From positions 1 through 64,000 of the forward strand of contig JAJYOG010000005.1 of the NCBI GenBank assembly GCA_021785935.1: a stretch of 64,000 nucleotides of DNA, given 5' to 3'. Under the pieces are notes generated by a model. It was not told where the DNA came from. It saw nothing but the letters and a program-made list of their open reading frames with translations, and did no database searches. Positions 172 to 25,194 of the stretch are shown here, one piece after another. Position numbers and translations under genes: made by a program. Origin of the DNA: Actinomycetes bacterium (GTDB lineage: Bacteria; Actinomycetota; Thermoleophilia; BMS3ABIN01). Numbering within the stretch: position 1 is the stretch's first letter; every line of letters begins with the position of its first letter.

Positions 172-978
172 TCAGGTTTTCAGCGGTTCTTTCTTCTCCT
201 CATCCTCTTCGTTGGCTTCCTCCTTTCTGGTCCGCTGTTTTTCCAGCATTCCGGCCTTTTTCTTCTCCCTGAGCCGGTAACTGTCACCCTTGATGGAGAT
301 CACCGTGGAGTGATGAAGCAGCCGGTCGAGGATAGCGGTGGCCATCACCTGGTCGCCGAAGATCTCGCCCCAGTCGGTGAAGCTCTTGTTGGAGGTGATG
401 ATGATGCTGGCTTTCTCGTACCGGCGGCTTAGAAGTCGGAAGAACAGGCTGGCGTCCTCGCGGCTCATGGGCAGATAGCCCATCTCGTCAAGGATCAGCA
501 CTTTGGGGTAGACCAGCTGCTGCAGCTGCCGATCGAGCCGGTTCTCGCTTCTGGCGCGTGATAGCCGCATGATCAGGCTCTCCAGCGTCAAAAACAGCAC
601 CCGGTGGCCGGCTTCCACCGCTTTTACCCCCAGAGCAACGGCCAGGTGGGTTTTTCCCACACCCGGAGGACCCAACATGATCACGTTCTCAGCCCGCTCG
701 CAGAACGCTAGGCCCGAGAGTTCACGCACCACCTTACGGTCGATGCTGGGCTGGAAGGCGAAGTCGAACTCGTCGATTGTCTTTACCCAGGGGAGCCGTG
801 CCTGTACCAGCCTGGACTCAACCCCTTTTAAGTGCCGGCCGCGCCATTCGGTATCGAGCGCGAGGGTGAGGAACTCCTTGTAATTAAGGTCCTTCTTGGC
901 CGCCTGCTCGCAGACGCCCTCGATCTGCGGCGCCAGGTGATCCATCTTCAGTTTTTCGATAAGCCCATCGAGCTGCAT
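172..978 (-). CDS. istB: IS21 family transposition helper ATPase IstB
   Basis: AAA+ ATPase that assists the IstA transposase in target selection and strand transfer. The 268-residue protein has a Walker A motif GPPGVGKT at residues 103-110 and a Walker B LILDE at about 161-165, followed by the GYLPMSREDASLFF region typical of IstB. ITSN at about residues 195-198 fits sensor 1. The C-terminal ~25 residues are highly charged (Lys/Glu rich), longer than many IstB proteins. The start follows the istA stop directly (979/978), as expected for a translationally coupled istAB pair. Confidence 0.95.
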   Translation of the reverse strand: MQLDGLIEKLKMDHLAPQIEGVCEQAAKKDLNYKEFLTLALDTEWRGRHLKGVESRLVQARLPWVKTIDEFDFAFQPSIDRKVVRELSGLAFCERAENVIMLGPPGVGKTHLAVALGVKAVEAGHRVLFLTLESLIMRLSRARSENRLDRQLQQLVYPKVLILDEMGYLPMSREDASLFFRLLSRRYEKASIIITSNKSFTDWGEIFGDQVMATAILDRLLHHSTVISIKGDSYRLREKKKAGMLEKQRTRKEEANEEDEEKKEPLKT

Positions 979-2163
979 CTAGATCACCTCCTCGTAGACG
1001 GAGAGGTCACGGTACTGGGCGCTTAAGGTCTCGCGCCAGAGCCGGGCATGATGGCCTGGCACTGTCGACCAGCCATCGGCGGTACTTTGCAATTGGTGTT
1101 CTGCAATCAGCGCCGTACCATCACCCGAGTAGACACGCAGGCGGCCATCCAGGCTGATCTTCACCGCCACTTCTCTTGCCCGGTAGTCGTCGGGCACCGA
1201 ATAGCGGTTGCCGCCGACATCGATGTAACCGTCGAAGCCGACCTGCCGGCGCTCGCGGTAGGAGGTGTCGAAGCGGACTGCCGGCAGAGTGAGCAGATGG
1301 GGCCGCTCGCGCTTAAAGCGAACTGAGACAATCTCCTTTACCGTGCCGTGCAGCCGCCTGTCCGTGACGGTCGCCAGCCAGGCGAGCGCCAGGTTGTTGG
1401 CTTCCTCAATGCTCGCAAAGGAGCGGTATCTTTGGAAGAAGTTGTGCTTGATGTAGCCCACCATACGCTCATCCTTGCCTTTGGTGCGGGCGCGGTAGGG
1501 GCGGCAGGCTCTGGGAGTGAACCCGTAGTAGCCGGCCATGTCCAAAAAAGCGGTATTGTAGCGGACCCGGCCGCGTGAGTCGTGGCTTATCACCATCGAC
1601 TTCTGGTTATCCACCAGCACCTGAGCTGTGGTGCCGCCGAAGTACTCAAAAGCGCGGATAAGACCCTCGTAGGTGTGCTCGGCGTCTTCGCGGTCAGTAA
1701 TCCAGAAGTGCAGGCGGCGTGAGTAGCCCAGCGTGTTGACCGTGAAGTGGAGCTTTTTGGGCTCACCAGCTACCATACTCCACAGCTCGCCCCAGTCGTT
1801 TTGCAGCTGGACGCCGGGGGCCGTCTCGAAGCGCACTGTCTCGCGGCTCTTTCGCAGTGACCGTTTCGGTTTGATGTAATCCGCCAGAATCGTATAGCCG
1901 CCTGTGTAGCCCTGCTCGCGGATTATGCTCTCAATCACGCGCGCATTCCATACTCCTTGCCTCAGATGCTCATCGATCAAGACTTTGAACGGATCCAGCT
2001 TGCTGGTTTTCGCCAGCGGCCTCTTACCGGACGGGGCCGAGCGCCGCTTCAGCGCCCGTCTGATGGTTTTGGGGCTGACGCCGAGATTGGCGGCGATGTC
2101 TTTCTGATAGACACCGCTGGCATGTTCCGTTTTAATATGCATGTAGTCCTCCTTGGTGAGCAT
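979..2163 (-). CDS. istA: IS21 family transposase IstA
   Basis: DDE-type transposase of an IS21-like element. The 394-residue protein begins with a helix-turn-helix (about residues 17-40, YQKDIAANLGVSPKTIRRAL), followed by an rve integrase core. Candidate catalytic residues are D123 (QNDWGE), D185 (VLVDNQKS) and E232 (KGKDERMVG). The C-terminal beta-barrel-like region around GGNRYSVPDDYR is typical of IstA. It lies directly upstream of istB. Length is within the family range and no disruption is seen. Confidence 0.95.
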   Translation of the reverse strand: MLTKEDYMHIKTEHASGVYQKDIAANLGVSPKTIRRALKRRSAPSGKRPLAKTSKLDPFKVLIDEHLRQGVWNARVIESIIREQGYTGGYTILADYIKPKRSLRKSRETVRFETAPGVQLQNDWGELWSMVAGEPKKLHFTVNTLGYSRRLHFWITDREDAEHTYEGLIRAFEYFGGTTAQVLVDNQKSMVISHDSRGRVRYNTAFLDMAGYYGFTPRACRPYRARTKGKDERMVGYIKHNFFQRYRSFASIEEANNLALAWLATVTDRRLHGTVKEIVSVRFKRERPHLLTLPAVRFDTSYRERRQVGFDGYIDVGGNRYSVPDDYRAREVAVKISLDGRLRVYSGDGTALIAEHQLQSTADGWSTVPGHHARLWRETLSAQYRDLSVYEEVI

Positions 2164-2225
2164 CGATACCTCCTGTTTAAAGATTGTGAGTCTTCAAAGC
2201 AGAAGGATATTCGATTGCTCAGCTT

Positions 2226-2257
2226 GGGGGACAAATTATTCCGGAATTTAGGGGTAA
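2226..2257 (-). repeat. IS21 right terminal inverted repeat
   Basis: The reverse complement reads ttccggaataa, two bases, then tgtcccc, matching the left end at 121-152. It lies upstream of istA and may include its promoter. Beyond about 2262 the sequence becomes IS110 transposase. Confidence 0.6.
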
Positions 2258-2262
2258 TTTAG

Positions 2263-3010
2263 CACCGGCACTGACAATGGAGCTAAACCGTGCCGGGTCG
2301 CCGACCTCCAGCACCCAGGTAAGAGCCGTCACTTCGCTCACGCCGTCGATGGTCCTGAGCCTTCTTACCCGCTCGCGGATCAGTGGATCTTGTTTGAGCT
2401 CGTTAAGAAGGCGGCGCTGCGCTGCCTGGAACATCTCCAGGCTGGCACGGCTTAGTTTAAGCAACTCGATGACGGAATCGGGCACGTCCTCGACCTCCTC
2501 CAGCAGCTGAGCGAAGTACTGCTGGCCATGGAGCCGCTGCTTGCTGTAGTCTGCGCCTACCTCCATGAGTAGGCCGGACATCTTGTTCTTCGTCTTTACC
2601 GCCATGCGCACCACCAGGTTGCGGTAGCGAAGGATGCGCCGGAGCTCCCTGATCTCCTCGGAGGCCATATGGCATTCGGGCAGCAGATCTGCCCTTAGCA
2701 GGTCTGCCAGCTTCTCGGCGTCGGCCCGGTCGTTCTTCTTCTTTGCCGCGGTGATGGCTTTAAGCATCTGTGGGTGGGCTACCTTGATATCCTGGGCCAC
2801 CGGTTTTAAGAAATCGTAGATCCAGGCGGTGAAGATGGTCGCCTCCATTGCCCCGATCCAGGGACCGGGTATCGTCCGAGCCCACTTGCCAAGGGCTGTT
2901 CGTCTGGCTGCCACCGTGCCAGAAGATACTTTGCTGCCGTCTCCCAGTTTGATGCAATACGCGACCGACTTCTTGTGGACGTCCAGGCCAATGTAGTAGA
3001 TACTTTCCAT
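2263..3010 (-). pseudogene. IS110-family transposase, C-terminally truncated
   Basis: N-terminal ~250 residues of an IS110-family DEDD recombinase. The RuvC-like domain shows D10 (YIGLDVHKKS), E56 (GAMEAT) and the acidic pair D94/D97 (KKNDRADAEKLADLL), followed by a coiled-coil-like region. The start of the transposase_20 domain is visible (DGVSEVTALTWVLEVGD). Similarity ends near ARFSSIVSA, where the IS21 right end begins, so the serine-containing C-terminal half of the active site is missing. The open frame continues to a stop at 2219 inside the IS21 terminus. The start at 3010 has an adjacent ggagg. Confidence 0.85.
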
Positions 3011-3277: not shown

Positions 3278-3361
3278 ACAGTTCATTCTGTGATTATACG
3301 TATTACTACTTATATTTTATATTATAACTGGTAACCCGATTTGATTATCAGGGATCCCGGC

Positions 3362-3886
3362 TCAGGCGCAGGTCCATTCACCTTTCCTGCCCTGGGACCA
3401 CATCCAGGCGGCCGCCTGTATCTGCGCGTGCCCGTCATAGATGCTCTGGCCCCCGAACGGAGTACCGGCCCAAGTGCTCGGATTGAACTGGAAAAGCCCC
3501 TTGCAGACACCATTATCGGCGCTGGAATCTCCCTTGCTCTCGCAAATCATTACCCTGAAGAGCAAGTCCGGATCCTGACCGTATGTCTCGGCGGCTGCGA
3601 CCAGGTCGGGCCCCCAATCGCCGAAACGTGCAATCGCATCGGCGTTTTTCTGCTGCGCAACCTGCTTTTGTCTTTCCTGTTCCTTGAGCGCCGCATAAGC
3701 CAGCCTGGCGCTTTCGAGCCTGTTCTTCCAGACAGGGAAATCCGTTGTTGATACTGCTTCCCTGCCAGGCCAATCAATCAGGCGGCTGTCATGCGCCGCC
3801 TTTCCTTGTGCCGCCTGTGCTGCGTAGATCCCTATTCCTCCTACGACCAGCAATCCAATCGCGACAGCCATAGCAACATATCGCAT
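3362..3886 (-). CDS. Secreted lytic transglycosylase (SLT-like)
   Basis: A 174-residue exported protein likely to cut peptidoglycan glycan strands. Residues 5-25 form a signal peptide or N-terminal anchor (AMAVAIGLLVVGGIGIYAAQA), followed by a short coiled region (about 55-85). The C-terminal domain has a transglycosylase pattern: E116 in ICESKGDSS is the likely catalytic acid, GLFQF lies at 130-134, and IQAAAWMWSQGRKGEW is a final helix. Single cysteines near both ends of the domain (C115/C128 and the terminal WTCA) may form disulfides. It stands alone. Resuscitation-factor-like activity is possible but not shown. Confidence 0.8.
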   Translation of the reverse strand: MRYVAMAVAIGLLVVGGIGIYAAQAAQGKAAHDSRLIDWPGREAVSTTDFPVWKNRLESARLAYAALKEQERQKQVAQQKNADAIARFGDWGPDLVAAAETYGQDPDLLFRVMICESKGDSSADNGVCKGLFQFNPSTWAGTPFGGQSIYDGHAQIQAAAWMWSQGRKGEWTCA

Positions 3887-4433
3887 GCATCCCTTCCGGC
3901 CTTCTGAGGCCTGTGAATAGCTTTCATTACAGGCAGACGTTTCACCGTTGGCATCTTACGTCTGCCGGATTGCAAGGCGTTTCACCTCCTCAAATTGTTT
4001 GACAGTTACATAAAAATAGCGCTCATATTGGCGCCGCGGGCAATATTCGCACTCAGATAAGCCAATCCTTCAATTTCCCCGAGCTTCTTTCGGCAGGAAC
4101 ATCCCCATGTTTTAGCCGGCCACAGGTTTGAGCACACCGATACGTATGAGTAATCCACGGGGGCAGCACAAAGAAAAAGGAGAAGAAGCTGAGAAAAACC
4201 CGGGGGACCGCCGCTGGAAAATATTGCCTGCGGCGATATCATTCAGTTGTCTGAGTGAACTGAACTATTCTACGTAAAAAGCTACTAATACTCAAGAAAG
4301 ATAGTGGCTATTGATACATGCATAGGGATAAGTTCGGGAGATAACACCACTATTGGAGCGTCCACACATATTGGAGCGTCCACACATTTTCCCGGTCTAA
4401 CTGGACGCAGGGCGACGGGCTCCGCGCTGGCGC
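3887..4433. other. 547-bp intergenic region
   Basis: No convincing gene is seen. The small frames here lack a good start or recognisable sequence. The only structure noted is the tandem repeat at 4351-4386. Sequence upstream of 3886 probably holds the transglycosylase promoter. Confidence 0.5.
4351..4386. repeat. Two-copy 18-bp tandem repeat
   Basis: The unit tattggagcgtccacaca occurs twice without mismatch at 4351-4368 and 4369-4386, just past the methyltransferase stop. Confidence 0.85.
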
Positions 4434-5171
4434 TCAGTCTGACAGGTCTACAATGGCGATGAGACGGTAGCAGGGACCAACATTGAGATAGCTGAGCAAC
4501 CCCGCCAGCGGCATCAATCCCAGTACGGTCAGGTTGTAATAGAAACAGTTCCGGCTTATCCACCCCTTCATGAGAAAGGAGCGCAGCCAGATATTGGTAT
4601 TTTTCCTGATCGAAAACGATCCCTTCCTGCCGGTACGTTTGAGGGCGCGGGTGATCAACAGTTCCAGTTCGTCCCGCTGCGGTAATCCGTTCTCCAGGTG
4701 ATCTTTAAAAAAAGGGTATTCCTCACCGCGAACTCGCCTATAGCGTTCAGCCAGATGCTGGTCCTGAGCCTCAGCCGCGGTTCCGGCAGGCACCGCGATC
4801 ACCGCGCGCCGGTAGGCCGTCCTGACGATCTCCGTAACCGCGATATCCCTTTTATCCGGCGGGATGTGCTCGAGCGAGTCCACCGAAACAACCGCGTCAA
4901 AATCACGCTCGTCATAAGGTAGCCGGGTAGCCGAGCCTTCAACCTGATCCATATCTGGATTATCCTGCTCGAAGGCACGGTCCACACCAGTAAGATCGAA
5001 ATCCAGTGAATAAGGCGTAAGCCCCAGGTCGCCGGAGCCCACTTCGAGCACCTTGCCAGCGCCGCTCTCCCTGAGAGCGCGTACAACCGGCAGATATCTC
5101 AGCGCCACTTCTGTGGACTGATCCGGATACCTGTGCATGAGCCACTCTACGATTTTTCCTGGAAGGGACAT
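4434..5171 (-). CDS. Class I SAM-dependent methyltransferase
   Basis: A 245-residue protein with a methyltransferase-11-like Rossmann core. Motif I is VLEVGSGDLG at 41-50, an acidic residue follows in DLTGVD, and a DAVVSVDSLEHIPP segment matches motif IV of small-molecule methyltransferases. After the core, a ~70-residue C-terminal part is hydrophobic near the end (FYYNLTVLGLMPLAGLLSYL), suggesting membrane association. The substrate cannot be read from sequence. It lies between the transglycosylase and dsrJ without operon overlap. Confidence 0.75.
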   Translation of the reverse strand: MSLPGKIVEWLMHRYPDQSTEVALRYLPVVRALRESGAGKVLEVGSGDLGLTPYSLDFDLTGVDRAFEQDNPDMDQVEGSATRLPYDERDFDAVVSVDSLEHIPPDKRDIAVTEIVRTAYRRAVIAVPAGTAAEAQDQHLAERYRRVRGEEYPFFKDHLENGLPQRDELELLITRALKRTGRKGSFSIRKNTNIWLRSFLMKGWISRNCFYYNLTVLGLMPLAGLLSYLNVGPCYRLIAIVDLSD

Positions 5172-5242
5172 CTCTTGCTAATTGTAGCAATATTGGCAGC
5201 CGCAATGCATCCGTGAGACCTGGGACCAGAAGCAGCTTTCAG

Positions 5243-5596
5243 CTAGTAATCGATCGCCGGGTTGATCCCCACGAACTGATGGCAACGGTCGCAGAAACTT
5301 GCCTTGTCGCTATGGCAGGCCGCACATTGTTTGGTGCTCTGACCCGGCTGCTTCAAAATATTCATGTGGTTACGCATGTAGTTGAGATCCACGGCGCCGT
5401 TGGGCAGCAGTGGTTTGGGAAGATTTACCGCATATTCGTCCATGAGAGCGCCATACTGCGCAGCCTCGGCGCTAATTGAAACCGGCCGGGGATCGCCATT
5501 AAAGATGTTGCCGCTGGCGGCGTGTATCGAAAATGGCAGATAGAGAATAGCCGCGAACAGGATCAGGACGATTACTGCTTTCACTCTCATGTTCAT
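5243..5596 (-). CDS. dsrJ: DsrJ-like c-type cytochrome (two haem motifs)
   Basis: A 117-residue protein with an N-terminal hydrophobic signal/anchor (about residues 5-27), placing the haem domain outside the membrane. Two CxxCH motifs are present close together, CAACH and CDRCH, with the FCDRCHQFVGINP context typical of DsrJ. Canonical DsrJ is trihaem and continues into a third CxxCH just after this proline; here the protein stops at PAIDY, so the third site is absent. The start overlaps the dsrK stop by four bases (ATGA), so they are translationally coupled. Role: electron relay between the DsrMK membrane module and the periplasmic side. Confidence 0.75.
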   Translation of the reverse strand: MNMRVKAVIVLILFAAILYLPFSIHAASGNIFNGDPRPVSISAEAAQYGALMDEYAVNLPKPLLPNGAVDLNYMRNHMNILKQPGQSTKQCAACHSDKASFCDRCHQFVGINPAIDY

Positions 5597-7155
5597 GCTT
5601 TTGCTCCCAGTTCTATCGCCCTGCCTACCAACTGGTGCACACCCCCCGCCACACTCATTGGTATCCCGTACTTGGGCATTATTTTTGTAAATTGGGCCTT
5701 GCAGATTGCGCAGATCAGAGCCATGAAATTAACCCCATCGCTTTCGATGACGCTGTGCAGCGCCTGCATCTTGGGCATGGCGCCCTGAATCCGGATCTGC
5801 AGAATCTCATCGGAGAGCAGACCGCCGCCGCCGCCGCAGCAGAACGTCCTTTCATGGATGGTGTCCTTATCCATGTCCACAAATTTATTGCAGGAGGCCT
5901 TTATCAGCTCCCTGGGAATGGTGAACTGCCCGCCCGGGCGGTCTCCCATTGAGGATCCGCGGGCGACGTTACAGGAATCATGGAAGGTAACGGTAAATTC
6001 GTCGTTCGCCGACTTGTCGAGCTTGATCGCTCCGCGCCGCACCAGATCCAGCGTAAACTCACAGATATGCTGCGGGGAAGGATACTTCGGATCCAGCATG
6101 TCGAACGGCCCGATTAACGTATTCCAGAACGAGTAGGCAACCCGCCATGCATGCCCGCATTCGCCGACGATCAAACGCTTGGGCTTCATTTCACGGATGG
6201 CATCGCTTACACGCGAGGCAACCTTTTGCATCTGATTGTAGTTGCCAATGAACATTCCAAAGTTGCCGGCTTCAGAAGCAGCCGTGCTCAGGGTCCAGCT
6301 GATTCCTGCCTGGTGGAACACCTTGGCGTAACCCAGCAGCGATTCCACGTGAGGCGAGGCAAAGAAATCAGCCGAAGGCGTAACCATCAGAACCTCGGCT
6401 CCGGCCTCATCCAGAGGCAGCCGTATCTTCTGACCTGTCTCTTCCTCGAGGTCCTCTTCCGTGGATTCGAGCGTGGCCGCCAGAGCCTTGGGGTTCATCC
6501 CCAGGTTGTTGCCGATCGTATGGACCTTGCCCAAGATTTCGTTGACGTACTTCTGGCCGAGCCCGATGCTGTCCATGATCTCCCGGGCAGCCATGGAAAT
6601 CTCTGCGGTATCGATACCCTGCGGGCAGTAAACAGAGCAGCGCCGGCATTGAGAGCACTGGTGGAAGTAGGCATACCAGTCACCGAGTACCTTGAGGTCG
6701 AGCCTGTGCGCGCCTGCCAGTTTTCCAAACAGCTTGCCCTCAGTCGTGAAATATTTCTTGTAAACCTGCCGAAGCAGCTCAGCGCGGGCAACCGGCATAT
6801 TGTTGGGATCGTTGGTGCCGAGAAAGAACTGGCACTTATCGGTGCAGGAGCCGCACCTGACACAGGTATCCATGTAAACCTGAAGGGATTTGTATTTCTC
6901 CAGCAGCTCTCCCAGCTTGCGGACAGCGACCTCTTCCCAATTGTCCACCAGGGTCTCGGGAAAGCCGAGCTTGGCCTGGATCTCCGGTTTGGCCATATGA
7001 GGTTTGACGTCAGCGGTCACGCCTTTGACGATCAAGCCCTCTTCAACGCGCGGCATGAAAATCTCGCCGGTAAGCTCGGGAGCCTTGAAGGCCTTATTCT
7101 GCTTCGCTTCAGAAACTATCTCTGCAGGAGTCTTATCTACAGTTTGTTCTGCCAT
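5593..7155 (-). CDS. dsrK: DsrK/HdrD-like iron-sulfur subunit
   Basis: A 520-residue cytoplasmic iron-sulfur protein of the DsrMK type, known to pass electrons from menaquinol via DsrM towards DsrC-type disulfides. It has two ferredoxin-like [4Fe-4S] sets: C98, C101, C104, C108 (CVRCGSCTDKC) and C167, C170, C173, C177 (CSQCRRCSVYC). The C-terminal half carries a CCG domain with HDSC, then FCCGGGGG and ICAIC, the arrangement that binds the noncubane catalytic cluster in HdrB/HdrD. It sits between dsrM and dsrJ. An HdrD or Tmc-like assignment is the alternative, but the neighbours favour DsrK. Confidence 0.88.
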   Translation of the reverse strand: MAEQTVDKTPAEIVSEAKQNKAFKAPELTGEIFMPRVEEGLIVKGVTADVKPHMAKPEIQAKLGFPETLVDNWEEVAVRKLGELLEKYKSLQVYMDTCVRCGSCTDKCQFFLGTNDPNNMPVARAELLRQVYKKYFTTEGKLFGKLAGAHRLDLKVLGDWYAYFHQCSQCRRCSVYCPQGIDTAEISMAAREIMDSIGLGQKYVNEILGKVHTIGNNLGMNPKALAATLESTEEDLEEETGQKIRLPLDEAGAEVLMVTPSADFFASPHVESLLGYAKVFHQAGISWTLSTAASEAGNFGMFIGNYNQMQKVASRVSDAIREMKPKRLIVGECGHAWRVAYSFWNTLIGPFDMLDPKYPSPQHICEFTLDLVRRGAIKLDKSANDEFTVTFHDSCNVARGSSMGDRPGGQFTIPRELIKASCNKFVDMDKDTIHERTFCCGGGGGLLSDEILQIRIQGAMPKMQALHSVIESDGVNFMALICAICKAQFTKIMPKYGIPMSVAGGVHQLVGRAIELGAKA

Positions 7156-7203
7156 TTTTATCCTCTCACAACTACAGATCGCATTTGCTACGACTGATTT
7201 GTT

Positions 7204-8010
7204 TCAGGAATCGGGCGTGTCTTTGCTGACGATCAGCGACGGCTGGACTGGCACGGGCTCCGGAGATCCGGCGCGGCCAGGCTTTTTGACCGTCCAGGGT
7301 CCCCAGCGCTTTACCCTTGAATTATCAACCTGGTTCCGGGTGGGGCTGAAGAAGATGCCAACCGCGTGAACCAGCTTGCTGAAAGGAAAGTAAATGAGCA
7401 GCAACATGATCAGGCTGAAATGGGTCAGGAACAATCTGTTGTCGGGGACGGTCCCCGGATTAAAAGTGAACAGTCCGCCAACGAACACCTTGATGTCGGG
7501 GAGGTCGGCCCTGACACCGCCGCCTTCCCAGAATCTGGAGAGAAGCCCGGTGGTGGCAATGCACATGAGCAGACCCAGCAACAGGTAGTCATTGAATACT
7601 GAAATATAGAAATGCCGGTCTATAACCAGGCGCAGGATAAACAGGAAGGCAAGGGCGGAGAGAAGAATAAATCCGGTATAAAGGTCAAAATTAACCAGGT
7701 TGTCAAGAAAAGCGGGAGTTGAAGGAAAGAGAAACCTGAGGTGCTTCATGAAAACAAACAGAAGGCTTAAGTGAAATACGTAACCGCCCACCCACAGGAG
7801 TTTGTTGCTTTTGAAAAGGCTCTTGAAAAGAACTATTTCCTGAAACATTCGCGAGCCCACGCCTACCGTTGTTTTGGGCGCTGGCGTCAGGGGAATCTTT
7901 AGCGGAGCTGGCGTGGCGGCGTACTTCCATATTTTTAAAAGCAGCCCGACCAGAAAGATGTCAACGGCGATGTAGAAATAAGCACTAAAAACCAACGTTA
8001 ATCCGGTCAT
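7204..8010 (-). CDS. dsrM: DsrM-like membrane cytochrome b subunit
   Basis: A 268-residue integral membrane protein of the NarI/DsrM type that should oxidise menaquinol and hand electrons to DsrK. Hydrophobic segments occur at about 5-25, 65-90, 105-130, 140-160 and 190-220. Histidines within or near them (VFHLSLLFVFMKHL, LTHFSLI) are candidate haem b ligands. The tail is a polar, proline-rich cytoplasmic end. The start at 8010 follows an aaggaggaagt ribosome-binding site. It is the first gene of dsrMKJ, with a matching promoter at 8053-8081. Confidence 0.82.
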   Translation of the reverse strand: MTGLTLVFSAYFYIAVDIFLVGLLLKIWKYAATPAPLKIPLTPAPKTTVGVGSRMFQEIVLFKSLFKSNKLLWVGGYVFHLSLLFVFMKHLRFLFPSTPAFLDNLVNFDLYTGFILLSALAFLFILRLVIDRHFYISVFNDYLLLGLLMCIATTGLLSRFWEGGGVRADLPDIKVFVGGLFTFNPGTVPDNRLFLTHFSLIMLLLIYFPFSKLVHAVGIFFSPTRNQVDNSRVKRWGPWTVKKPGRAGSPEPVPVQPSLIVSKDTPDS

Positions 8011-8031
8011 ACTTCCTCCTTAACCGCCAGA

Positions 8032-8047
8032 ATACCTCCATAGGTAT
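8032..8047. repeat. Short palindrome in the dsrM leader
   Basis: Arms atacct (8032-8037) and aggtat (8042-8047) with a 4-base loop lie between the dsrM promoter and start. It is a possible operator or small leader hairpin; function unknown. Confidence 0.35.
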
Positions 8048-8052
8048 GGGCT

Positions 8053-8081
8053 ATTATGATGTATACAATGAAATTAGTCAA
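8053..8081 (-). promoter_or_regulatory. Promoter for dsrMKJ
   Basis: On the minus strand TTGACT (8076-8081) and CATAAT (8053-8058) are separated by exactly 17 bases, close to the sigma-70 consensus, about 43 bases before the dsrM start. Confidence 0.6.
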
Positions 8082-22452: not shown

Positions 22453-22878
22453 CTACTCGAAACCGAGATAAGCCAGCGATGCCAGGAAGACCGCTAACAG
22501 CACTCCCAGGGCGACCAGCGTATGCAGCAACAATCTGCCGTAACGCCACTTGGTGATCTGCTTGTAGAACAACGGGAACAGAATCAAAATCGGAGGAAAT
22601 ATGATAAAGGTCAAAATTATGCCAACGGTTTTGGGCACGTACTTGAGAATCTGATAAACGCTCAGGAAGTACCATTCCGGCTTGATCCCCGCCGGAGTCT
22701 TCAGCGGATCGGCGGGCTCTCCCATCGGCGCGGGCATCAGCGTGGCCAGAAAAACAACAAGCCCCAGCACCAGAGCCATCACTGCCGCCTCCTTGACGAA
22801 ATGATCGGGAAAGAAAGGCACTCCGCCCTCGTGCTCGTCTTTATCCTTTTCCGGTTCGTAACTTTGGTTGGGACTCAT
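22453..22878 (-). CDS. Cytochrome b C-terminal half (subunit IV-like)
   Basis: A 141-residue protein equivalent to PetD/QcrC C-terminal cytochrome b. It has the quinol-site motif PEWYFL (IKPEWYFLSVYQILK, about residues 67-81) and three membrane spans (about 30-50, 85-105, 115-140). With the separate b6-like subunit this shows a split cytochrome b, as in b6f and menaquinol:cytochrome c complexes of Firmicutes, unlike the fused b of typical aerobic Actinobacteria. It follows the b6 gene by 18 bases. Confidence 0.9.
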   Translation of the reverse strand: MSPNQSYEPEKDKDEHEGGVPFFPDHFVKEAAVMALVLGLVVFLATLMPAPMGEPADPLKTPAGIKPEWYFLSVYQILKYVPKTVGIILTFIIFPPILILFPLFYKQITKWRYGRLLLHTLVALGVLLAVFLASLAYLGFE

Positions 22879-22896
22879 TTATTCACCTCGCACCAT

Positions 22897-23541
22897 TTAT
22901 AGCGGATCGGCAATGCCCTGCTTGCGGACCATAAGAAAATGGGCCACAAGCAGCGCCGACAATGTGATCGGCAGGATTATTACATGGATCGTATAAAAGC
23001 GGGTCAGGGTCGCATCGCCGATTTTGTCTCCCCCCAGGAGGAAAGCCTGAACGTACTGACCGATTAAGGGTATGGCGCCGGCGATCTCGGTGCCGACCTT
23101 GGTAGCCCAGTAGGAAAGCTGGTTCATCGGCAGCAGATAGCCCGAGAAGCCAAAGGTTATGGTGATGAAAAACAGAACAACGCCCGTGATCCAGTTAAGC
23201 TCCCGCGGCGGCCGGTAGGCGCCATGGAAGAATACTCTGAGCATGTGGAAGACCACCATGATGATCATGATGTTTGCCGTCCAGGCATGCAGGCTCCTGA
23301 CCAGGACTCCAAAAGGCACGTTATCCATGATATTGAGGACGCTGCTGTATGCCGTAGTTGTCGAGGGTTCGTAATAAAACGCCAGTAGCACCCCGGTCGC
23401 GGCCTGGATCAGGAAGCACAGGAAAGTTATCCCGCCAAAACAGTATAGCCAGTTGACGTGATCGGGAACCGGATGGTTGGCGAACTCCCTGGCCCCTTTT
23501 CTGATTCCAAAGCGTTCGTCAAGGAAATCGATTACGCTCAT
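22897..23541 (-). CDS. Cytochrome b6-like subunit
   Basis: A 214-residue four-helix cytochrome b. Two histidine pairs expected to bind two b haems are visible: LHAWTANIMIIMVVFH in helix B and IHVIILPITLSALLVAH in helix D. The PPRELNWITG segment follows helix B as in the b6 family. Together with the Rieske protein and subunit IV it should oxidise menaquinol and pump protons by a Q-cycle. The start overlaps the Rieske stop by four bases. Confidence 0.93.
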   Translation of the reverse strand: MSVIDFLDERFGIRKGAREFANHPVPDHVNWLYCFGGITFLCFLIQAATGVLLAFYYEPSTTTAYSSVLNIMDNVPFGVLVRSLHAWTANIMIIMVVFHMLRVFFHGAYRPPRELNWITGVVLFFITITFGFSGYLLPMNQLSYWATKVGTEIAGAIPLIGQYVQAFLLGGDKIGDATLTRFYTIHVIILPITLSALLVAHFLMVRKQGIADPL

Positions 23542-24017
23542 GCTATTCCCTCCACGTAAATGTCAGTACCCTCGACCGCAATCTTGTATTTGGTCAGAGG
23601 TTTCGGCGGCGGGCCGGCGATCGGCTGCCCGTTTTCATCAAACTTGCCGGCATGACAGGGACAATGAAAGTCCCTCTTGGCCGCTTCCCACTTGACTATA
23701 CATCCTAGATGTGTGCAAACGAGGGAATAAGCGGCGAAACTGGAATCCTGTAACTGGATCAGCATCGAAGGCGTGTCCATGTAATCGAAGCGGACGCCAT
23801 CGGCGGTCACCTGTGCAGTGGATGCGATTTTTTGCTTCTCAAAGACCTGGCCCTTAAGCACCGGATAGGCATATCTGGCCAGCGGCGCCGCGAAGGCTCC
23901 CAGCCCCACCGCCGTCGCTCCAGCGAAACATATCGACAGGAACCGCCTCCTGGTGATAACAGCGGCACTTTCCTTTTTTGGGGTTGTCATTCCGCAAGAT
24001 TCTTTATTTTCAGTCAC
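23538..24017 (-). CDS. Rieske [2Fe-2S] iron-sulfur protein
   Basis: A 159-residue Rieske subunit. A twin-arginine-like N-terminal anchor (TRRRFLSICFAGATAVGLGAFAAPLARYAYP) precedes the cluster domain with CTHLGC and CPCHAG, which give the two Cys and two His ligands plus the usual disulfide cysteines. The start at 24017 overlaps the end of the multihaem cytochrome gene by eight bases. It passes electrons from quinol to the operon's c-type cytochrome. Confidence 0.93.
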   Translation of the reverse strand: MTENKESCGMTTPKKESAAVITRRRFLSICFAGATAVGLGAFAAPLARYAYPVLKGQVFEKQKIASTAQVTADGVRFDYMDTPSMLIQLQDSSFAAYSLVCTHLGCIVKWEAAKRDFHCPCHAGKFDENGQPIAGPPPKPLTKYKIAVEGTDIYVEGIA

Positions 24018-25194
24018 GACCTGACAGCCTCCTCCTTCTCGGCTTGAGCACGCCCTGGTGGAACAGGAATATCAGCAGGCTGGCGCTCGCCAGGAGATAC
24101 GCGATCCAGAGGGCAAGCGGTCCTACCTCACGGCTGCCCCCGGTGGTGCCGGCAACCTCGACCAGCACGCGGTAGAAAGCGTAGATATCAGTCGTAAATA
24201 CCGCCACGCTCAAGGCCACGGCGATCCAGCTTTCGAAGATGAAGCGTTTGGCTTTCGGCCAGGGTACCAGCGTCAACATGAAAACTCCGATGACCAGTCC
24301 GAACATGCCCAGCGGCGCGGCGCTGGCCTGTTGAGCTTCCTGGGTCGGCGCGAACGTTGGCGCCGTATGGAAATGACAGCTCTTGCAGTTCTTGGCCTCC
24401 GCCGGTTCTGCGTGACAGGCGAGGCACGTCTGTCTCTCAATCTGGTCGTACTGAACACCGTTGATTTCACCAGGCCCGTGGGCGAGCTTCCAATGGTTAT
24501 TGCGCCAGATCGCGGTATCAATCTTTGGCGCTCCTGGATGCTCACGTCCAGATAAGGTGATCGGACCGAAGATAATTGGCGCTACATCTCCCGAATGGCA
24601 GGTCGAGCAGAATTCGGGCTTGGCGGCAGCCTGCGGTTTGTCACCGGTCAGTTCGGCCCCATGGACCACTCCGGAGTGGCAGTCGGCACACTTGAGCTGC
24701 ACTTTATTCACATGAAAATCATGCGGAAAATATATGGTCGTCTTGTCGGGACTGTACTGGTCGGTAACAGCAATCTTCGGATAGGAGGGATCGTTAGGGT
24801 CGGTAACGCTGATGCCATCCTCATAGCCAGGTTTTCGTTCCGAGGCTTTGCCATGGCACTGCAGACAGGATGAGTTGGTGAGCAGATCGGCGGATGGCGG
24901 CGGGCGGTCGTAATTCTGAGTGCCGTACTCAGTGAGTTTCATCAGGGAATAAATCTTGCCACGGGCGTATCCAAGAACGCCAGGCTCAAAGTGGCAATCG
25001 ATGCAGGTCACGTTCCTGTTACCCAGCTTGCTGCCCATGAAAGAGGTTTTCCAGGCAGCTACATACGGCTGGATTATGTGACAGCTATCGCAAAACTCAG
25101 GATTGTTGGTATAGCGAACCCCCCAAATAGTCGCACCTACCACGACAATAAACAGTACTACAAGCGCCCCGGCCAAGATGGATCTGCCTCGCAT
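24010..25194 (-). CDS. Heptahaem cytochrome c with membrane-spanning C-terminus
   Basis: A 394-residue protein with an N-terminal membrane anchor (about 5-28) and seven CxxCH haem motifs: CDSCH, CIDCH, CLQCH, CADCH, CSTCH, CLACH and CKSCH. The first haem region (NPEFCDSCHIIQPYVAAWKTS) is NapC/NirT-like. After the haem domain come three to four membrane spans (about 292-312, 323-345 and 360-385) and a basic tail. It is first in the bc operon, replacing cytochrome c1/f, and probably takes electrons from the Rieske protein to extracytoplasmic reductases. The combination of NapC-like head and membrane tail is unusual. Confidence 0.85.
   Translation of the reverse strand: MRGRSILAGALVVLFIVVVGATIWGVRYTNNPEFCDSCHIIQPYVAAWKTSFMGSKLGNRNVTCIDCHFEPGVLGYARGKIYSLMKLTEYGTQNYDRPPPSADLLTNSSCLQCHGKASERKPGYEDGISVTDPNDPSYPKIAVTDQYSPDKTTIYFPHDFHVNKVQLKCADCHSGVVHGAELTGDKPQAAAKPEFCSTCHSGDVAPIIFGPITLSGREHPGAPKIDTAIWRNNHWKLAHGPGEINGVQYDQIERQTCLACHAEPAEAKNCKSCHFHTAPTFAPTQEAQQASAAPLGMFGLVIGVFMLTLVPWPKAKRFIFESWIAVALSVAVFTTDIYAFYRVLVEVAGTTGGSREVGPLALWIAYLLASASLLIFLFHQGVLKPRRRRLSGRD

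Follow-up and report, generated by a model that had tools for sequence, protein, structure and literature searches.

A compact DsrMKJ with a two-haem DsrJ and no adjoining DsrOP in Thermoleophilia

Introduction

The DsrMKJOP complex of sulfate reducers and sulfur oxidisers contains a three-haem DsrJ. In PMC8076601, DsrMK is described as transferring electrons between menaquinol and DsrC, DsrJOP is proposed to form a second quinone branch, and DsrJ is suggested to act on thiosulfate. Smaller arrangements have also been reported. Excerpts of PMC10504309 deal with DsrMK-only complexes, and in cable bacteria, as described in excerpts of PMC13047784 and PMC10926707, a dsrTMKJ locus stands without adjoining dsrOP, the OP homologues being located elsewhere in the genome.

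The locus described here lies in a 64,000-nucleotide stretch of a Thermoleophilia genome (contig JAJYOG010000005.1, positions 1 to 64,000; hereafter the window). It has in common with DsrMKJOP the M, K and J subunits, the M-K-J order and the DsrK family with its clusters, and the overlap between the start of dsrJ and the stop of dsrK is also seen in the canonical operons of the same bacterial family. It differs from DsrMKJOP in that O and P, the third haem motif and the conserved cysteine are all missing and the loop ahead of the first CxxCH is shorter. The DsrMK-only complexes likewise lack O and P, whereas the window locus keeps a c-type DsrJ. Two-haem and 2x2-haem DsrJ loci of Nitrospirota and Nitrospinota share with it the two-haem unit and the absence of both the cysteine ligand site and OP, but their DsrJ is mostly lipoprotein-anchored by sequence, some of them stand beside Rieske/cytochrome b genes, some are tandem-duplicated, and they are separate on the DsrK tree. 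No published description of a two-haem DsrJ or an OP-less DsrMKJ of this form was recognised in a literature search that covered parts of the sources and had subscription papers and preprints mostly outside its reach.

The dsrMKJ locus

All three genes are on the reverse strand: dsrM (7204..8010) encodes a membrane cytochrome b of 268 aa, dsrK (5593..7155) an iron-sulfur catalytic subunit of 520 aa, and dsrJ (5243..5596) a two-haem c-type cytochrome of 117 aa, the start of dsrJ overlapping the stop of dsrK by 4 nt in the reading frames. DsrK scored 552.5 bits against the NCBIfam DsrK profile (NF045796), above its equivalog cut-off of 400 bits, and contains the Pfam domains Fer4_8 and CCG. DsrM, at 150.3 bits, is under the equivalog cut-off of 300 bits (NF038037), yet DsrM is its best-scoring family nonetheless; Pfam Nitrate_red_gam was also matched (42.9 bits), and the conserved DsrM histidines are retained in an alignment with 18 other DsrM sequences. 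The family match of DsrJ is DsrJ, at 27.3 bits and thus under the canonical equivalog cut-off of 100 bits (NF038038). Sequence searches of solved structures with DsrJ, DsrK and DsrM gave nothing usable.

The next gene downstream of dsrJ encodes a methyltransferase, and the reading frames bear out the prediction of a compact dsrMKJ that ends after dsrJ without OP. Neither dsrO nor dsrP adjoins the trio, and genome-wide searches with DsrO and DsrP found matches on two other contigs only (C16 and C9), with none on the contig of the window (C2). The operon had also been predicted to be promoter-driven, for which there was no backing beyond chance: the site at 8081-8053 is a 10/12 match, and the region contains two promoter-like sites versus 3.0 expected in shuffles. 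Transposase-like genes on the reverse strand (172-3010), which we take to be an ATP-binding helper and transposase pair and a second transposase-like frame, are located 2.2 kb from dsrJ.

DsrJ with two haem motifs

Canonical DsrJ has three haem motifs, and the window DsrJ has two CxxCH, namely CAACH (5312..5326, reverse strand) and CDRCH (5279..5293, reverse strand). The cysteines and the histidine of both motifs are invariant in 18 two-haem DsrJ sequences, and the second motif is also placed by the profile register. The profile match spans positions 90-116 of 121 and stops 5 short of the profile end, at the third-motif site, so that DsrJ ends just short of the usual third motif, expected near residue 117. 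Both the CxxCH count and the register thereby corroborate the two-haem DsrJ of the original prediction. An N-terminal helix (residues 3-27; 5516..5590, reverse strand) without a lipobox is the predicted membrane anchor. In the AlphaFold model, pLDDT is about 88-91 over the first 20 residues and 64.9 on average, the N-terminal helix alone being confident and the rest uninformative.

A feature overlooked in the original prediction is the absence of the conserved cysteine upstream of M(R)xxHM; there is no cysteine at all ahead of the first CxxCH. In work of Grein from 2010 this residue was reportedly an axial haem ligand. One His-Met pair is invariant together with both CxxCH in the alignment of the 18 two-haem DsrJ, which come from more than one phylum and leave out a group with HP instead of HM (e.g., L029 and L209). 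This invariance fits a working two-haem wire.

It had been considered that a frameshift or an assembly error might hide a third motif. In G067 (99% complete), which belongs to a different species of this genus, the dsrM-dsrK-dsrJ trio is found again, with 92% identity in DsrK, 87% in DsrM and 74% in DsrJ, and its DsrJ is also 117 aa long with the same end point; the short DsrJ is therefore not a frameshift. There is no CxxCH in the three forward frames over 300 nt past the dsrJ stop, and this DNA is not conserved between the two species (27% identity), which together with the orthologue rules out such an error. The dN/dS values for the pair are 0.07 for M, 0.04 for K and 0.13 for J (NG86; rough, since dS exceeds 1), and dsrJ is under purifying selection.

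The canonical operon and related genomes

The window genome has two DsrK. A complete dsrN-M-C-K-J-O-P-A-B-L operon is found on contig C16, and the window dsrMKJ is therefore a paralogue. The original prediction had advised looking for dsr genes elsewhere in the genome, and dsrA, dsrB, dsrC, dsrO and dsrP are all in the C16 operon: the window locus is OP-less, but the genome does have DsrOP. The idea of a reduced complex thus stands for the locus, which is compact, two-haem and without OP, and fails for the genome, of which it is not the whole complex.

The C16 DsrJ carries the conserved cysteine, and its third motif is widened to C(x6)CH. This motif is present in canonical DsrJ of Thermoleophilia (L101 10495-10923, which is the C16 locus itself, L016, L017, L018, L103, L159, L161 and L162), and in L015 the third motif takes the form C(x9)CH. 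In several loci a second dsrA-dsrB(-dsrL) set, about 50% identical, is found in the same operon (L010 16624-20828; L013, L014, L021, L163), and the window genome has such a second set on another contig (C15, about 3300-5628). DsrD was detected in none of the 16 genomes of the family with PF08679, a short divergent family that could escape detection; this is the opposite of the review PMC10591310, which in its consulted part credits Thermoleophilia with DsrD.

DsrK was found in 16 of 399 genomes sampled from the class, and these 16 belong to a single family. A stand-alone MKJ together with a canonical, OP-bearing operon is found in four of them (G000, G067, G025 and G113); besides that of G067, the stand-alone loci include L009 and L011. 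Loci with dsrMK but neither dsrJ nor dsrOP nearby, among them L030 and L043, were also seen, for example in Magnetococcales and Nitrospirota.

Six sister-genus genomes (G031, G043, G049, G055, G061 and G073; 92-98% complete) have no DsrK above the cut-off other than the two-haem form. The gene order in all six is M-C-K-J-A-B-L with no gene between J and A, within contig limits (L021 begins inside dsrK and L012 stops inside dsrB). Profile searches found canonical DsrP in 0/6 and canonical DsrO in 0/6 of these genomes. The best DsrP scores were 133.7-138.5 bits, versus 677-716 for canonical DsrP of G000, G067, G091, G025, G037, G079, G113 and G107. A DsrP score is by itself no proof of absence, as the reductive-type DsrP of G009 reaches 106 bits only, and for this reason neighbouring genes were read at L177 and L182 and at L175, L184, L186, L188 and L189. 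The NrfD-type match adjoins a Mo-oxidoreductase in both sister-genus loci inspected (L177 and L182, 2/6), and a match of like kind and score is found also in family genomes that do have DsrP. Since aprA and dsrA are present in 6/6, the Dsr pathway of the sister genus appears whole.

Co-variation with DsrOP on the DsrK tree

DsrJ and the downstream genes were read in 131 loci, and 83 rows entered the DsrK tree. Eleven rows lacked a full score on the two traits, because DsrJ was not found or there was too little downstream sequence. Of the 72 scorable loci, 41 have the cysteine, the third motif and adjacent OP, 31 lack the cysteine, the third motif and adjacent OP alike, and none is mixed. The scoring counts C(x6)CH and C(x9)CH as third motifs and L231, with four CxxCH, as three-haem; L032, L067 and L089 were set by hand to OP present, their O and P being cut by the stretch end or lying more than 8 kb from K, and L210, with a DsrO-like gene 6.4 kb off and no P, was counted as without OP. 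The score of the window itself comes from the reading frames and the genome-wide DsrO and DsrP searches, not from the script. In the table of 132 K entries, the loci off the rule are those at contig or stretch ends (L033, L063, L019; with O only, L032, L039, L088, L089) together with L067 and L210; L045 and L074 have OP, with no DsrJ recognised, and L104 duplicates L016. The Nitrospirota loci were picked by DsrK score, not at random, from 185 positive of 395 genomes.

The tree requires four changes, and there are only four independent contrasts, all in the expected direction (sign test p 0.125). A single clade of all two-haem rows, a group chosen after the tree was seen, is rejected (p-AU 2.4e-6). 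Within Thermoleophilia the two-haem rows are grouped together (bootstrap 100, SH-aLRT 98) and nested among rows with the cysteine, the widened third motif and OP, so the loss there looks derived. We infer that the third haem and the cysteine are functional parts of the J-O-P branch, lost when O and P were lost. J, O and P may, however, have a history separate from the DsrK tree and could have travelled as one block, in which case the correlation with OP need not be functional.

Possible function and partners

For the window DsrMKJ we infer the partner, the haem binding, the electron route and the direction from sequence. On balance we favour, with some reservation, a second, streamlined Dsr membrane complex that works without DsrOP as a menaquinol/DsrC oxidoreductase, the two-haem DsrJ being a periplasmic electron port to another partner. 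Menaquinol would be oxidised at the cytochrome b DsrM, and electrons would pass to the iron-sulfur clusters of DsrK and on to the cluster at the CCG site, reducing DsrC, or in reverse oxidising it; the DsrC would be borrowed from the main operon. With O and P absent, the only contacts left to DsrJ would be DsrM and some partner in the periplasm or the membrane. A c-type or Rieske/cytochrome b partner might take the place of DsrO and of the DsrP quinone site in exchanging electrons with the membrane-anchored DsrJ. A partner other than DsrOP, as already put forward in the original prediction, is plausible.

A Rieske/cytochrome b complex is suggested as this partner by the Nitrospirota. In four of their loci (L022, L202, L204 and L217) genes for a Rieske protein and a cytochrome b6 come immediately after a two-haem dsrJ, and no Rieske neighbour is found at the other two-haem Nitrospirota and Nitrospinota loci read (L205, L207-L210, L212, L220, L068, L077 and L029). 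Most Nitrospirota two-haem DsrJ have a lipobox-like start. In eight further Nitrospirota loci (L206, L211, L213, L214, L215, L216, L218 and L219) a tandem two-haem unit with four CxxCH follows dsrMK without OP. In Thermoleophilia no Rieske gene adjoins dsrJ; the distance is about 14 kb in the window, and the G067 Rieske gene is on another contig. The candidate partner cluster of the window (22453..25194, reverse strand) was read from the frames as a seven-motif multihaem cytochrome (24010-25194), a Rieske protein (23538-24017), a cytochrome b6-like protein (22897-23541) and a petD-like protein (22453-22878), all on the reverse strand. The multihaem gene is present in 10/10 family genomes with a two-haem DsrJ versus 3/6 without it, a weak association uncorrected for kinship (Fisher p 0.036).

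A wider and rather speculative proposal is that the cysteine-associated third haem would link DsrJ to DsrO for electron transfer rather than take part in sulfur chemistry, and would go with the cysteine when OP is lost. The two-haem DsrJ would then be a stand-in for cytochrome c1/f of the Rieske/cytochrome b complex, and the DsrMKJ-bc unit would have arisen more than once.

Alternatively, DsrMK alone could suffice, with DsrJ a dispensable or structural remnant. This agrees with the DsrMK-only complexes in the excerpts of PMC10504309, with L043 and L030, where M-K is found with no J in about 10 kb downstream, and with the faster divergence of J than K between the two species (74% vs 92%). The low dN/dS of dsrJ and the invariant haem and His-Met residues across phyla speak against a remnant, and the duplication of the two-haem domain to a four-motif cytochrome in the eight Nitrospirota loci would be odd for one; we hold this explanation to be unlikely. 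More doubtful still is that the window DsrMKJ serves as another front end to which the canonical operon lends its DsrOP in trans, so that a full DsrMKJOP still forms. The four genomes that contain both loci would allow it, and in cable bacteria (PMC13047784, in excerpt) dsrTMKJ is indeed apart from the OP homologues; the six sister-genus genomes, however, have the two-haem form and no canonical OP, and the two-haem DsrJ is without exactly those features that are paired with OP in 41/41 loci. Lastly, a Tmc/Hmc-type complex, closer kinship to which had been raised beside the original prediction, is rejected as highly improbable: although DsrK, TmcB and HmcF are related families that all match the window DsrK, it scores 552.5 bits as DsrK versus 192.1 as TmcB (cut-off 735) and 147.4 as HmcF (cut-off 750), DsrM scores 150.3 versus 25.7 as TmcC, and on the tree the window DsrK branches from within the DsrK of dsr operons.

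Implications

What the cysteine-associated DsrJ haem does, and what the J-O-P branch is for, is the standing question that the OP-less two-haem DsrMKJ addresses. Natural complexes without the third motif, the cysteine and OP, in Dsr pathways that appear complete, would mean that these form one functional unit which is dispensable to the pathway. The joint losses in the relatives, two subunits and one haem, may thus hint at the purpose of the missing haem.
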